Assembly (NCBI GenBank): GCA_007132225.1
Contig: SLPB01000027.1
Span: 1-59,272 of the forward strand
Source: Bacteroidales bacterium
GTDB taxonomy: Bacteria; Bacteroidota; Bacteroidia; Bacteroidales; PUMT01
Reading direction: 5' to 3'
DNA length: 59,272 nt
Shown: in pieces, positions 27,263 to 33,620 of the stretch
Position numbering within the stretch: position 1 is the first letter of the stretch
How the letters are laid out: each line of letters starts with the position of its first letter
Made by a program: the position numbers and the translations under genes
Notes under the pieces: generated by a model
Databases searched by the model: none
Told to the model about the DNA's origin: nothing
Seen by the model: the letters and a program-made list of their open reading frames with translations, nothing else

Positions 27263-28210
27263 TCAATATTTTTTGCTGATGTAATACTTAACTCTCTGAT
27301 AGGTAGATACATGGCGATTGACTTTTTTCTCGTACAGGTCACTCATTGTTATCATAATACCCGTTTCCTCAACATCCCCGAAACTATCATTTATAACTGT
27401 ACCAAAGACTCTCATGGAAGGGGAGAGGTTCATATAAGCGTTGATAAGGGGCGGAATAACTTCAGAATGACTTCTAACATATTGTGAAAGCTTTTTGTAG
27501 TCCTCCTGGTAATCACGCCCATTAAGAATCTTCCCGAGCTTTGAAATATTTGCCTCTGTGTCCAGTGGTTTTTTAGGCCAGATCAATTGATCCGGGTCAG
27601 GAAAGTATTTCATAAGAAAATAAAGAATCAGGTTTCTTGATTCTCTGTTAAATTTGGGGTACATGGTAACCTTGCCAAAAAAATATTTCATTTTGGGGTT
27701 GTCAACCATAATGGCCCCGAGTCCATCCCAAAGGTTGTCAAGTGCAAATAAGCCTTTTCTGGCTCTGGCGGTGGACTGGTAAGCGGGTTGCACAAAAGAC
27801 CTTCCAAGTTCAATCAGGTAGGGAAGGTATTCAGTTTTGAATTTATCAGAAAAATGAAATAGTTTTGAAGTAGCAAATCTTTCAATATTAACGGGCTTGT
27901 CGGCAGGAGGTATATAGTACCTGTATCCCCCAAGTATTTCCCGGTGTTTGGGGTCCCAGACTATAAGCTGTTTGTATGGTTCATCGGATGTGTCAAAAGC
28001 GTCCAGGTCAATTTTTTTTCCTGTTCCTCCTCCGGCACGCCGGAAGCTAAGCTCTCTTAATCTGCCTATTTCAGTTATAATTTCAGGGGAGTCAATATGA
28101 TCAACAATATACAGCTCATTGCCGGCATTGTTTGTTTTCCTAACAAATTTAGAAGGATCAAGTTCTTTTTCTATTTTCTTCGGACTGACTGGAGCTATAA
28201 TCGGTTCCAT
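27263..28210 (-). CDS. GNAT-fold N-acyltransferase, GlsB-like (glycine/ornithine lipid type)
   Basis: A 315-residue protein of the hemolysin-like or OlsB-like acyltransferase family: IGRLRELSFRRAGGGTGKKIDLDAFD, GGYRYYIPPA, ERFATSKLFHFS, LIELGRSFVQPAYQS and KYFFGKVTMYP. In Bacteroides thetaiotaomicron a neighbouring pair, GlsB (N-acyltransferase) and GlsA (O-acyltransferase), makes N-acyl-glycine lipids; the adjacent PlsC-like gene here fits that pair, and the assignment is by homology and context. It lies 417 bp downstream of the PlsC-like gene on the same strand, an unusually long gap with nested inverted repeats. It converges with the PurF-like gene. Confidence 0.8.
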   Translation of the reverse strand: MEPIIAPVSPKKIEKELDPSKFVRKTNNAGNELYIVDHIDSPEIITEIGRLRELSFRRAGGGTGKKIDLDAFDTSDEPYKQLIVWDPKHREILGGYRYYIPPADKPVNIERFATSKLFHFSDKFKTEYLPYLIELGRSFVQPAYQSTARARKGLFALDNLWDGLGAIMVDNPKMKYFFGKVTMYPKFNRESRNLILYFLMKYFPDPDQLIWPKKPLDTEANISKLGKILNGRDYQEDYKKLSQYVRSHSEVIPPLINAYMNLSPSMRVFGTVINDSFGDVEETGIMITMSDLYEKKVNRHVSTYQRVKYYISKKY

Positions 28211-28627
28211 GATAATTTCAAAGGTTCGTAATTTTTGTTATTTGAGATACTACATGAATCCCCATGTTACCGTGTAACACAAAAAGCCATGAATAAAACA
28301 GGGGGATTCATCCATTTGAAACATTTAACATGAATTACCTGCAAAAAATAATTAACTGATTATTAATTTGATTAACCTGTTTTATTAGGATGAAACCCGC
28401 ATCAGCCTTTGGTTGAACATGCATTCAGTTTAAAGAAAGCTTGCCAGTTAATCTGTTTCGGATCCTTAAATAAACTAAAGCATAAAAACCTGCCTGGTTT
28501 GCGTGCTAAAATAACACTTTTATCGAATGGATTTTGAAAAAGTTCAAATAAATTTATTTTTATCCGGTAAAATTAATCAGAATTTATGTAAAACGGGAGC
28601 CAGCCGGTATTTTAATTTTATGGGGTA
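28211..28627. other. Intergenic region between the two acyltransferase genes
   Basis: These 417 bp hold the nested inverted repeats at 28254-28311 and otherwise A+T-rich sequence. I found no gene, tRNA or good terminator in it, and no full promoter match on the minus strand. Confidence 0.5.
28254..28311 (-). repeat. Nested inverted repeats before the GlsB-like gene
   Basis: Outer arms ATGAATCCCC (28254-28263) and GGGGATTCAT (28302-28311) are perfectly complementary. Inside lies a second repeat, TGTTAC (28265-28270) and GTAACA (28274-28279) with loop CGT. The set ends 43 bp before the GlsB-like start on the minus strand, a likely position for its leader RNA or an operator. Confidence 0.7.
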
Positions 28628-29467
28628 TTACTTGGTATCAGGAAGGCTGTAAACTTTGGCTTTCACCTCTTCAGCCCATTCAGCAAGAGATTTTGATTTG
28701 TCTAAATGAGTCCAGGGAATTGGTTTGCCAATGGTAACATGAATTTTATGGTGCTTTTGCCTGAACATCTCATCCGGCAGATAGAACATTTCAATGTTGG
28801 TTTTAATACCCGTTCTTTGCCGCAGGTTTGCCAGGCGGTAAAAAAAATTGGAGTTCCTCCCTTCAAAATGAACGGGTACAATATCACGTTTATAGTCCCT
28901 TGCTTTTTTTATGAAGCTTTTTTTCCATTCCAGGTCCATTATCCTGCCACCCTGTTTACGGGAGCATAACCCGGCCGGAAAGTACAGAACCTGGGAATCT
29001 GATTTATAAAGCTCTTCAATCTTTCTTACATATTCTGAAGACTGCCGTCCGTGTTTGTTTACGGGTACAAAGAGGGGCTCCAGGTTTTTCAGGTTGAGCA
29101 ACAGATCATTAACTATGAATTTTACATTTTTGTGATATTTGCCTATTATATCCATGAAAACCATTCCATCAAGACCCCCCAGCGGATGGTTGGAGACAAA
29201 GATATGTCTTCCCTCAGGAGGTATGTTTTCTTCACCTGACACAGCATATTGTATCCCCATATAATCAAGTATATGGGATAAAAACTCCAGCCCCTCTTTA
29301 TCCTTAAATTTGATAATGGCTTCATTTAATTCTTCCTGGTGCAGAGTACGCTTGATGTAATTAATTACAAACCCGGGCATAAGCCTGTAAACCTGGGGGC
29401 TTTTTTTCTTAAAAATAGCATCTACATCAATAATTCCGGATTCCCGGGGTAGTTGTTTGTCTGTCAT
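28628..29467 (-). CDS. PlsC-like acyltransferase, GlsA-like
   Basis: Lysophospholipid-type acyltransferase of 279 residues that would transfer an acyl group to a lysolipid acceptor in the inner membrane. Motif I reads NHPLGGLD (His94 to Asp100), so five residues separate His and Asp instead of the usual four. LFVPVNKHGR probably corresponds to motif II and FPAGLCSRKQGG to motif III (commonly FPEGTRS). The context with a GNAT-type N-acyltransferase suggests the second step (O-acylation) of glycine lipid synthesis. It has a near-ideal promoter at 29488-29518, is divergent from mraZ and is likely expressed with, but 417 bp before, the GNAT gene. Confidence 0.82.
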   Translation of the reverse strand: MTDKQLPRESGIIDVDAIFKKKSPQVYRLMPGFVINYIKRTLHQEELNEAIIKFKDKEGLEFLSHILDYMGIQYAVSGEENIPPEGRHIFVSNHPLGGLDGMVFMDIIGKYHKNVKFIVNDLLLNLKNLEPLFVPVNKHGRQSSEYVRKIEELYKSDSQVLYFPAGLCSRKQGGRIMDLEWKKSFIKKARDYKRDIVPVHFEGRNSNFFYRLANLRQRTGIKTNIEMFYLPDEMFRQKHHKIHVTIGKPIPWTHLDKSKSLAEWAEEVKAKVYSLPDTK

Positions 29468-29487: not shown

Positions 29488-29518
29488 CAAAATTATAAAA
29501 TAATGACAATTGATCAAA
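29488..29518 (-). promoter_or_regulatory. Strong Bacteroidota-type promoter of the PlsC-like gene
   Basis: Read on the minus strand: TTTG (29518-29515), exactly 19 bases, then TAATTTTG (29495-29488), a perfect match to TTTG-N19-TAnnTTTG. The leader to the ATG at 29467 would be about 14 bases. Confidence 0.75.
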
Positions 29519-29530
29519 AAGTTATCAACA

Positions 29531-29570
29531 ATGGTGGAGAAAAGTGGTATAAAGTGGTATAAAGTGGATA
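29531..29570 (+). promoter_or_regulatory. MraZ operator: four GTGG repeats at 10-bp spacing
   Basis: AAAGTGGTAT occurs at 29541 and 29551, AAAGTGGATA at 29561, and a degenerate ATGGTGGAGA at 29531. The GTGG core recurs exactly every 10 bases. In E. coli and Mycoplasma, MraZ binds phased direct repeats of this kind (TGGGN or AAAGTG boxes) just before its own gene and represses the dcw cluster. The site is 37 bp before the mraZ start. Confidence 0.88.
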
Positions 29571-29606
29571 AAATTTATTTATTTTTACCTATTCAAATAA
29601 AAAGTT

Positions 29607-30068
29607 ATGGCAACATTTATAGGTGATTATAACTGCAGGGTTGATGCAAAGGGAAGGGTTATGCTTCCTGCGGCATTTAAAAAGCAAATGCCGGCAGCAG
29701 CCATGGCAAAGTTTGTTGTCAAGAAAGATATTTTTGAAAAGTGTCTGGTATTATACCCAATGGATGAGTGGGACAGGCAGAATAATATAATCAGGTCAAA
29801 AATAAATCCATATAATAAGGAACACAGCCGATTTCTCAGAGGGTTCTACAAGGGAACGGCCGAAGTTGTACTCGATGCAAGCAACAGAATACTGGTGCCA
29901 AGAAGATTGCTGGATCTTGTGGGGATTGAAAGTGAAGCAGTGCTGGCCGGGCAGGATGGCAAGATAGAGATATGGAGCAGTGATTTGTATATCAAGCTTG
30001 AGAGTGAAGCAGATGGTTTTGCTTTACTTGCCGAAAAGATAATGGGTGACGACGGAAATAATAAGTAA
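29607..30068 (+). CDS. mraZ: Transcriptional regulator MraZ
   Basis: DNA-binding protein heading the division and cell-wall cluster. The 153 residues hold two SpoVT/AbrB-like swapped-hairpin domains, the first with DAKGRVMLPAAFKKQM, the second with LDASNRILVPRRLLDLVGI, both with the R and P residues of the family; the C-terminus is acidic. MraZ forms ring-shaped oligomers that bind phased repeats, present 37 bp upstream. The stop is 3 bp before the rsmH start. Confidence 0.95.
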   Translation: MATFIGDYNCRVDAKGRVMLPAAFKKQMPAAAMAKFVVKKDIFEKCLVLYPMDEWDRQNNIIRSKINPYNKEHSRFLRGFYKGTAEVVLDASNRILVPRRLLDLVGIESEAVLAGQDGKIEIWSSDLYIKLESEADGFALLAEKIMGDDGNNK

Positions 30069-30071
30069 GTA

Positions 30072-30974
30072 ATGGATTACCATAAGCCGGTTCTTCTGAA
30101 AGAGAGCATTGACGGGTTGAATATCCATCAGGATGGAACATATGTGGATTTGACTTTTGGAGGTGGAGGACATTCACGGGAGATACTTTCAAGACTTGAT
30201 AAAGGCAGGCTTATTGCATTTGACCAGGATGCAGATGCTGAAGCCGAGTCAAAGCAAATATCAGATAGCCGGTTTACCTTTATCAGGAGTAACTTCAGGT
30301 TCTTTCGCAATTTTTTGAGATACCTGAAAATTGATCAGGTTGACGGGATAATAGCTGACCTGGGAATTTCCTCGCATCATATTGATGATCCTGAAAGGGG
30401 GTTTACTTTCAGGGGAGCAGCTGGTCCCGATATGCGCATGAACAGGGACAGCACTGTTACCGCTCTTGATATAATAAATAAATATAGTTTTGATGATCTT
30501 AGAAAGATTATGAGACAGTATGGTGAGGTTCATAATGCAGGAAAAGTAGCAGCCTCAATTATTAAGGCACGCGAAAACCAGGATTTCAAAGATACAAAAG
30601 AGCTTCTTGAAGCGATATCTTCCTGTGTGCCTCCAAGACAGGAAAGTAAATATCTGGCCAGGGTATTTCAGGCTTTGCGCATTGAAGTCAATAATGAGAT
30701 CGAGATTCTTAAACAGATGCTTTTGCAGGTATTATTTAGTTTAGAAAAAGGGGGACGTTTAGTGATAATTTCATATCATTCACTTGAAGACCGGATCGTG
30801 AAGAATTTCATGCGAACCGGTAAACCTGAAGGGAGCCTTGATAAGGATTTTTTTGGTAATCCGCTGGTTCCTTTTGAGGTTTTGACCAGGAAAGTTATTG
30901 TTGCCGGCCAAAAGGAAGTAGAAGACAACAAGCGCGCCAGGAGCGCAAGATTAAGAATAGCCAAACGTATTTAA
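30072..30974 (+). CDS. rsmH: 16S rRNA (cytosine(1402)-N(4))-methyltransferase RsmH
   Basis: Formerly MraW. SAM-dependent methylation of C1402 in the decoding site of 16S rRNA. The 300 residues show HKPVLLKESIDGL, the SAM-binding VDLTFGGGGHS, LIAFDQDADAE, IIADLGISSHHIDDPERGF, MRMNRDS, and the C-terminal VIISYHSLEDRIVKNFM with RARSARLRIAKR. It follows mraZ by 3 bp and precedes ftsL by 14 bp, so it is part of the dcw operon. Confidence 0.95.
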   Translation: MDYHKPVLLKESIDGLNIHQDGTYVDLTFGGGGHSREILSRLDKGRLIAFDQDADAEAESKQISDSRFTFIRSNFRFFRNFLRYLKIDQVDGIIADLGISSHHIDDPERGFTFRGAAGPDMRMNRDSTVTALDIINKYSFDDLRKIMRQYGEVHNAGKVAASIIKARENQDFKDTKELLEAISSCVPPRQESKYLARVFQALRIEVNNEIEILKQMLLQVLFSLEKGGRLVIISYHSLEDRIVKNFMRTGKPEGSLDKDFFGNPLVPFEVLTRKVIVAGQKEVEDNKRARSARLRIAKRI

Positions 30975-31505: not shown

Positions 31506-33620
31506 ATGAAAAAGGATATTCTTTGGAGAGTGGCCCTGGTCTATTTCGGCATATTGGTTCTTGCCGTTGCGATAATCGGCAAGTTGTTTTATATACAGTT
31601 TGCCGAGGGGAATATGTGGCAGGAAAAAGCAAACCGGATGACAATCCGCGACATTACCATTGAACCTAACCGTGGCGATATCTATGCATCCGGCAACAGG
31701 CTACTGGCCACCTCGATGCCATATTATGAAATAAGAATGGATCTAAGGGCTGCCGGCCTTACCAATCATATCTTTAATAATAATGTAGATTCTTTATCTC
31801 TTGCCCTGTCAGCCATGTTCAGAGATAAATCTGCATCTGCCTACAGGGTTGAGCTTACTAAAGCCAGGCAGGAAAATAAAAGATTTCACCTTATACAACG
31901 CAGGGTGTCATTTAACCAGCTGAAAGAGCTGAAAAACTTTCCGATTTTCCGGCATGGACAGAATACAGGGGGACTAATTGTCATACAGGATAATCAAAGA
32001 ATTCAGCCTCACGGAAATCTGGCTTCACGGACAATCGGCTATACAACCAAAGGGGAGACAGGAAATATTGTTGGAATTGAAGGAGCATATGATCAGCATC
32101 TCAGGGGAGTGATGGGACTGAAACTTATGCAGAGAATATCCGGAAATGCATGGATGCCTATTAGTGACCGTAATGAGGTTGAACCACGTGATGGAATAGA
32201 TGTAATTACTACAGTGGATATAGAGATTCAGGATGTTGCAACCAATGCATTGTTAAAACAATTAATTGCACACAGGGCACACCATGGCACAGCAATCCTG
32301 ATGGAGGTGCAAACCGGCAATATTAAAGCAATAGCCAACCTGGAGCGAAACAGCAGGGGAAAATATTCTGAAACCTACAATTATGCACTGGGTGAAAGCA
32401 CTGAACCCGGTTCAACATTTAAATTAATGTCACTGATGACAGCTCTTGAGGATGGCTATATCAGACTGGAAGACAGTATAGATACCGGTAAAGGGGAGAT
32501 GTATTTTTTTGATCAGCGTATTGCAGATTCACGTAAGGGGGGCTATGGCAAGCTTTCCGTAAAGGAGGTTTTTGAAATGTCTTCCAACGTCGGTGTTTCC
32601 ACGATTATTGATCGTTTTTACAAGGGCAGGGAGCAGGATTTTATTAATCATCTTTACCGCATGAATCTTAATGATAAAACCGGAGTTGAAATTCGCGGGG
32701 AAGGATCACCGGATATTAAGTATCCCGGTGACAGGCTATGGTCAGGTATATCATTGCCAATGATGTCAATCGGCTATGAGGTGAGAATGACTCCTCTTCA
32801 GATCCTTACATTTTATAACGCCGTTGCTAATAACGGGAAGATGGTCAGACCAAAATTTGTAAGCGCTCTGCAATACCATGGCAATATAGTAGAAGAGTTT
32901 CCTACTCAAGTTATAAATCCTTCAATTGCTTCTCCTGCAACTATAAAAAGCGCCCAGAAGATGCTTAAAGGTGTTGTAAAGTCAGGAACGGCAATAAACC
33001 TTGGGAATGCTAATTACAGCATTGCAGGAAAAACCGGCACTGCACAGATAGCCAATGAGAAATACGGATATGTAATGAACTCCCGTGTTTCTCATCAGGC
33101 CTCTTTTGTGGGATATTTTCCCGCCGACAATCCCCGCTATTCCTGTATAGTTGTTGTAAATTCACCTTCCAACAATGTTTATTACGGAAATCTTGTAGCC
33201 GGACCTATTTTCAAGGAGATAGCAGATAAGGTTTATGCCACCAGCCTCGATATGCATGAGCCACTGATTGCAAAAAGAAGTGTTTCATACGATCCTCCTT
33301 TCTCCAAGTCAGGAAATATTCACGATTTGAAAAGAGTTTTTGACCACTTTGGTTTGCCCCATAAAACAACTGGCGATCTATACGATTGGGTAACCACCAC
33401 CCGGCAGGATTCTTTTATTGAATTACAGGAAAGGATTATTATTGATGCATTTGTCCCCAATGTTGTTGATATGGCACTTAGTGATGCATTGTATTTGCTA
33501 GAAAATCAGGGTTTGCAGGTGGAGGTGAGAGGAAGGGGTAAGGTCAGTTCGCAATCTGTCCCTCCGGGTGCACTGGCTGGAAATTGGCAGAAAATCGTTT
33601 TGGAAATGAGTATAAACTAA
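31506..33620 (+). CDS. ftsI: Penicillin-binding protein, FtsI type, with C-terminal PASTA domain
   Basis: Septal peptidoglycan transpeptidase. The 704-residue protein has one N-terminal membrane helix (about 8-28), a pedestal domain, and the transpeptidase domain with all three motifs: SxxK as STFK (Ser303, Lys306), SxN as SSN at 359-361, and KTG at 509-511. A single PASTA domain (about 645-703, starting VPNVVDMALSDALYLLENQG) closes the protein, common in this phylum. 124 bp separate it from ftsL, the largest gap within the early operon. murE follows 7 bp later. Confidence 0.94.
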   Translation: MKKDILWRVALVYFGILVLAVAIIGKLFYIQFAEGNMWQEKANRMTIRDITIEPNRGDIYASGNRLLATSMPYYEIRMDLRAAGLTNHIFNNNVDSLSLALSAMFRDKSASAYRVELTKARQENKRFHLIQRRVSFNQLKELKNFPIFRHGQNTGGLIVIQDNQRIQPHGNLASRTIGYTTKGETGNIVGIEGAYDQHLRGVMGLKLMQRISGNAWMPISDRNEVEPRDGIDVITTVDIEIQDVATNALLKQLIAHRAHHGTAILMEVQTGNIKAIANLERNSRGKYSETYNYALGESTEPGSTFKLMSLMTALEDGYIRLEDSIDTGKGEMYFFDQRIADSRKGGYGKLSVKEVFEMSSNVGVSTIIDRFYKGREQDFINHLYRMNLNDKTGVEIRGEGSPDIKYPGDRLWSGISLPMMSIGYEVRMTPLQILTFYNAVANNGKMVRPKFVSALQYHGNIVEEFPTQVINPSIASPATIKSAQKMLKGVVKSGTAINLGNANYSIAGKTGTAQIANEKYGYVMNSRVSHQASFVGYFPADNPRYSCIVVVNSPSNNVYYGNLVAGPIFKEIADKVYATSLDMHEPLIAKRSVSYDPPFSKSGNIHDLKRVFDHFGLPHKTTGDLYDWVTTTRQDSFIELQERIIIDAFVPNVVDMALSDALYLLENQGLQVEVRGRGKVSSQSVPPGALAGNWQKIVLEMSIN

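Follow-up and report, generated by a model that had tools for sequence, protein, structure and literature searches.

How the expression of division genes is tied to chromosome replication is an open question in most bacteria. It is raised here by the DNA ahead of a dcw cluster in a Bacteroidales bacterium: which proteins might read the repeats in front of mraZ? The window (all 59,272 nt of contig SLPB01000027.1, from assembly GCA_007132225.1) encodes, on the plus strand, mraZ (29607-30068, with its ATG at 29607), rsmH (or mraW; 30072-30974), an FtsL-like protein (PF19579; 30989-31381), and a division transpeptidase, which is a penicillin-binding protein with PASTA (31506-33620). This succession of genes identifies the dcw cluster. 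The 153-amino-acid MraZ has two MraZ domains and scores 78.4 bits against PF02381 (cut-off 23). Its scores are below the cut-offs of the NCBIfam equivalogs (91.2 of 98.35 for TIGR00242 and 127 of 239 for NF001483). Four distinct sequences among the MraZ chains in the PDB are related to it (E = 4e-10 to 1e-9).

The initial annotation described four GTGG motifs in exact 10-bp phase at 29531-29570 and read them as an MraZ operator. We confirmed these coordinates. On the plus strand, a degenerate box 1 (ATGGTGGAGA, 29531-29540) is followed by two copies of AAAGTGGTAT (box 2 at 29541-29550 and box 3 at 29551-29560) and then by box 4 (AAAGTGGATA, 29561-29570); the GTGG motifs themselves are at 29534-29537, 29544-29547, 29554-29557, and 29564-29567. 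Across the 3,323,822 bases of the organism's own genome, GTGGN6GTGGN6GTGG has two overlapping matches, both at the array, and the reversed pattern has none. The array is the sole exact phased GTGG run in these 3.32 Mb. If two mismatches are allowed, the window has two matches, both of them exact, which is no excess over the mean of 2.26 in shuffled sequences. Searching the window against Rfam, at gathering scores, gave no match.

We examined the distribution of the array in the relatives of this organism. (The nearest named relatives are metagenome-assembled genomes of Bacteroidales, several of which are labelled CSSed or Sed10.) mraZ is present in 51 of 60 genomes, including the organism's own, and 40 of the 50 relatives have at least two GTGG motifs in 10-bp phase upstream of it. 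The ten misses include one artefact, G004: its first upstream region (L021) is at a contig end and gave an artefactual value, and it was left out in favor of the true one (L264). Across all 51 upstream regions, two motifs in phase were never found at periods of 7, 8, 9, or 11, and were found in one genome each at periods of 12 and 13. The 10-bp phase occurs on the reverse strand in three genomes, and with the reversed motif in one.

The pattern is sharper in 80 Bacteroidales loci from named genomes, of which we left out two with mraZ at a contig end (L059 and L107). Four RTGK boxes at exactly 10-bp spacing precede mraZ in 77 of the 78 assessable loci; the exception, L130, has three. Four such boxes lie within 200 bp of mraZ in 75 of 77 loci, versus a mean of 0.01 in shuffled sequences. 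In the same 77 loci, no such array was found at periods of 9, 11, or 12 or on the reverse strand, and one locus had an array at period 8. In a wider set of 80 genomes from the phylum, 76 (the organism's own included) contain mraZ, and we examined the upstream regions of every one of the 18 genomes in other orders of the class and of 32 of the 57 genomes elsewhere in the phylum. At least three GTGG motifs run in phase in 12/18 and 9/32 of these, respectively, and at least two in 15/18 and 28/32. Shuffled means were at most 0.10, and the other periods gave runs of two in 4/32 (period 9) and 1/18 (period 11). The initial annotation named absence of the repeats from relatives as grounds to refute the operator reading; instead, the array is kept through the order, the class, and the phylum.

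A degenerate three-box pattern matched at 38 places in 22 of the 60 genomes, and 35 of these places are at mraZ, two of them at the G004 contig end; the control matched at one place. The pattern is strict and misses many of the arrays at mraZ, so the one conclusion from these counts is that runs of this kind are uncommon at other places. The matches away from mraZ are in G020 (two) and G011 (one). Two stretches of G020 (L265 and L266) contain short 10-bp simple repeats of the TGGTTCAAAG type, which mimic the boxes.

Runs of A also recur every 10 bp in the array, as would be seen if phased A-tracts bent the promoter and no protein bound there. Because the RTGK search pattern itself demands T and G, we measured the conservation of the boxes in an alignment that was anchored on an upstream element (described below) instead of on the boxes (73 of the 78 loci). 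In each of the four boxes, the T and both Gs are conserved at 89-99%; for the A-runs that precede boxes 3 and 4, the figure is 68-92%. Also, several outgroups keep the phased GTGG and have weaker A-runs. We consider it very improbable that the array is only a bend.

The core of the E. coli MraZ box is TGGG, and the array differs from the E. coli dcw boxes in both core and number. It resembles them as a predicted autoregulatory site upstream of dcw: E. coli MraZ is summarized as having autoregulatory boxes there and as repressing itself (Eraso 2014, as cited in PMC8475190). In Mollicutes, the MraZ boxes are direct repeats of AAAGTG[T/G], according to Fisunov 2016 (cited in PMC8475190). Here too, an AAAGTGG core is found in direct repeats before mraZ, and the genome has one such site, as reported for M. 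genitalium. Unlike in the Mollicutes boxes as summarized there, the boxes here almost always number four, and a second conserved element adjoins box 1. Other papers report a LexA site at an mraZ homolog from the gut, tested with LexA from B. subtilis (PMC3998124), and a putative MraZ site in Burkholderia (PMC7761207). From its sequence and its conservation, we predict with high confidence that the four-box array is an MraZ operator.

We placed a promoter for mraZ, and another for the divergent gene discussed below, with the Bacteroidota consensus (TTG at -33 and TAnnTTT at -7). The inferred -7 element of mraZ is TATTTTTA (29580-29587, plus strand). It lies 12 nt after box 4, where the TAnnTTT columns are conserved across 77 loci. 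Counting back 19 nt leads to a -33 trinucleotide in the spacer between boxes 3 and 4; the window has TAT at this position (29558-29560), and several relatives from the genus have the expected TTG. Because the array overlaps this inferred promoter, it is likely that MraZ represses its own operon. MraZ would read the four GTGG motifs on one face of the helix, one for each 10-bp turn. Bound at the array, where boxes 3 and 4 flank the inferred -33 element, it would block RNA polymerase.

The second conserved element, which was absent from the initial annotation, is AAAAAGTTATCAACA in the window (29516-29530, plus strand). Its core, TTATCAACA (29522-29530), is a candidate clade-specific DnaA box. 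Of the 77 loci with the array, 72 have this AAAAGTTWTYAACA element with a TTWTYAACA core that ends 1-4 bp before box 1, and in 65 of the 77 the core is AAAGTTWTYAACA. In 39 of 51 genomes (the organism's own and the 50 relatives), TTWTYAACA is found no more than 45 bp upstream of the array. Among the 18 upstream regions from other orders of the class, six contain TTWTYAACA, five contain the canonical DnaA box, and seven contain neither; beyond the class, the element precedes the array in none of the 32 upstream regions. TTWTYAACA is also frequent in the genome at large: it occurs 574 times in the organism's own genome, versus 315 for the reversed control. The longer AGTTATYAACA occurs 7 times there, versus 16 for its reversed control, and by eye, from the open reading frames, we saw no shared gene at its six other places.

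The consensus for the DnaA box is TTWTNCACA (quoted in PMC7561715). The core of the element agrees with this consensus at eight of nine positions and has the same variable positions, but at position 6 an A replaces the C, both in the window and in the majority of the Bacteroidales loci that we read, so the window's core departs from the canonical pattern. This departure is one reason to consider that the locus is a plain MraZ operator and that the AAAAGTTWTYAACA element is another regulator's site, or an upstream promoter element, with no role for DnaA. However, the core varies at W3 and Y5, the same positions at which TTWTNCACA is variable, and two relatives have a canonical box in this place, oriented the same way (G112, AAAAAGTTATCCACA, with core TTATCCACA; and G104, AAGTTTTCCACA, with core TTTTCCACA). 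Also, a few relatives (G045, G055, and G034) have the core in the opposite orientation, which would be unusual for a promoter element. The canonical boxes of G061, G066, and G076 are flipped; as they include GTGG, they are less certain and may be stray boxes of the MraZ type.

Further evidence comes from dnaA. In 33 dnaA upstream regions from the order, we found 32 occurrences of TTWTYAACA, versus 4.6 expected and at most 10 in any of 100 shuffles; TTWTRAACA was found twice (4.6 expected). The canonical TTWTNCACA is enriched as well (9 seen, 2.6 expected). In a ranking of 9-mers from 41 dnaA upstream regions, TTATTAACA came fifth. This enrichment could also arise if a third protein controlled both dnaA and mraZ, and two control words with one change each exceed all 100 shuffles too, if less strongly (TTWTYTACA, 11 versus 4.4 expected; TTWAYAACA, 8 versus 2.8).

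The DnaA protein may have changed along with the box. In 28 of 33 dnaA loci (L135-L140 and L149-L175), its recognition helix has the residues HATV; the DnaA in PDB entry 1j1v has DHTTV there. When we aligned one of these DnaA proteins to 1j1v, it had QAR where 1j1v has RPR. Entry 1j1v is E. coli DnaA on its box, and the differing helix residue contacts the box. Across genomes, helices that read DHATV or NHATV tend to accompany an A at position 6 of the core, and those that read DHSTV or DHTTV a C (37:2 versus 1:4; Fisher p = 5e-4, which is optimistic because the genomes are related and not independent). This table was made partly by hand: we added G018, G019, G034, G045, G066, and G071 from their DnaA sequences, and we left out G023, whose match is box 1 itself (with G023, the second ratio is 1:5 and p = 1e-4). 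The exceptions to the pattern, namely G104 and G042 (DHATV with C) and G071 (DHSTV with A), speak for the plain-operator reading. Overall, we think it fairly likely that the abutting element is a DnaA site, as predicted from these sequence comparisons, and unlikely that the locus is a plain MraZ operator beside another regulator's site or a promoter element.

If this is correct, then the changed DnaA box would matter for locating replication origins in Bacteroidota. Close pairs of TTATYAACA occur at nine places in 6 of 12 genomes, versus three places for the control. In G052 (L176:7910-8033), there are five copies of TTATYAACA within 124 bp of AT-rich intergenic DNA, with no canonical DnaA box nearby. 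This cluster is a candidate replication origin; the sign of the GC skew does not change over 16 kb there. We also asked whether clustered TTATCCACA could mark oriC and rejected this: no clear cluster was seen in four genomes, and the closest case, three sites in G030, is inside an open reading frame. A tandem pair of TTATTAACA in G039 (L177:7192-7211) precedes a parA-parB-like operon by about 90 bp (the genes were named by eye).

There is a precedent for pairing the two proteins: according to Eraso 2014 (cited in PMC4446571), an MraZ site overlaps a DnaA box at the mioC promoter of E. coli. This makes a pairing of DnaA and MraZ more plausible and less novel. As at mioC, a probable MraZ site and a DnaA-like box would share one promoter here. 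Unlike at mioC, which is beside oriC, the pairing is at mraZ itself, has a fixed spacing in many genomes, and involves a changed box. In the parts of the papers that it returned, our literature search uncovered no description of either a DnaA box at mraZ or an altered DnaA box in Bacteroidota.

We propose that the stretch 29516-29587 probably controls the dcw cluster as a composite site for DnaA and MraZ. DnaA would bind AAAAGTTATCAACA, upstream of box 1, via the form of its site found in Bacteroidia (TTWTYAACA instead of TTWTNCACA). It would then compete or cooperate with MraZ, and the expression of the division genes would answer to the replication cycle. We give roughly even chances to such coupling of replication and division through the abutting element. 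We are similarly divided about a broader form of this proposal: that in much of Bacteroidia, DnaA with the altered helix (DHATV) binds a TTWTYAACA site that abuts the MraZ operator, so that the initiation of replication would directly set the expression of the division genes. This conserved combination of a DnaA-like box and an MraZ operator provides a concrete target of 70 bp for a link between replication and division.

The initial annotation also suggested that the repeats lie 13 bp from the promoter of a divergent PlsC-like gene and that one operator might influence both this gene and the division cluster. The divergent gene is glsA, which encodes lyso-glycine lipid O-acyltransferase (28628-29467, minus strand; NF053697, 403.2 bits, cut-off 260), and behind it is glsB, for glycine N-acyltransferase (27263-28210, minus strand; NF053696, 461.2 bits, cut-off 300). 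The distance of 13 bp holds for a promoter that we placed by eye from the consensus: its -33 TTG is at 29515-29517 and its -7 element, TAATTTTG, is at 29495-29488, 19 nt from the TTG, both on the minus strand. The conserved element fills most of this gap. A generic sigma-70 scan gave 3 sites, versus 1.4 (standard deviation 1.2) in shuffles, and none of them is the inferred glsA promoter. The conserved core is kept in 56 of 60 loci with divergent glsA. Where no glsA was found, it is kept in 13 of 14 loci whose flank spans at least 1.5 kb and in all three with shorter flanks. Since the core is kept where no glsA was found, the element is not simply the promoter of glsA.

The idea of a shared operator, by which MraZ (and the second factor) would also control glsA-glsB, draws on the nearness of the inferred -33 element to box 1 in the window and on the head-to-head arrangement of glsA and mraZ, seen in 61 of the 80 Bacteroidales loci from named genomes (L055-L134). 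But the spacing varies: the edge of the tblastn match to glsA is 137-465 bp from mraZ and is within 170 bp in just 8 of the 61 loci, seven of which are among the ten closest (L055-L064). The shared geometry is thus confined mostly to close relatives, and co-regulation of glsA is a local possibility. Sharing of the operator with glsA-glsB is plausible mainly in those relatives; as a general reading, we consider it rather unlikely.

The gap between glsA and glsB (28211-28627, minus strand) is 417 bp and has no open reading frame of at least 90 amino acids in our list. The glsA-glsB pair, for glycine lipids, is described as widespread in Bacteroidota (PMC12746155). Its position beside dcw forms a conserved neighborhood of lipid-synthesis and division genes.
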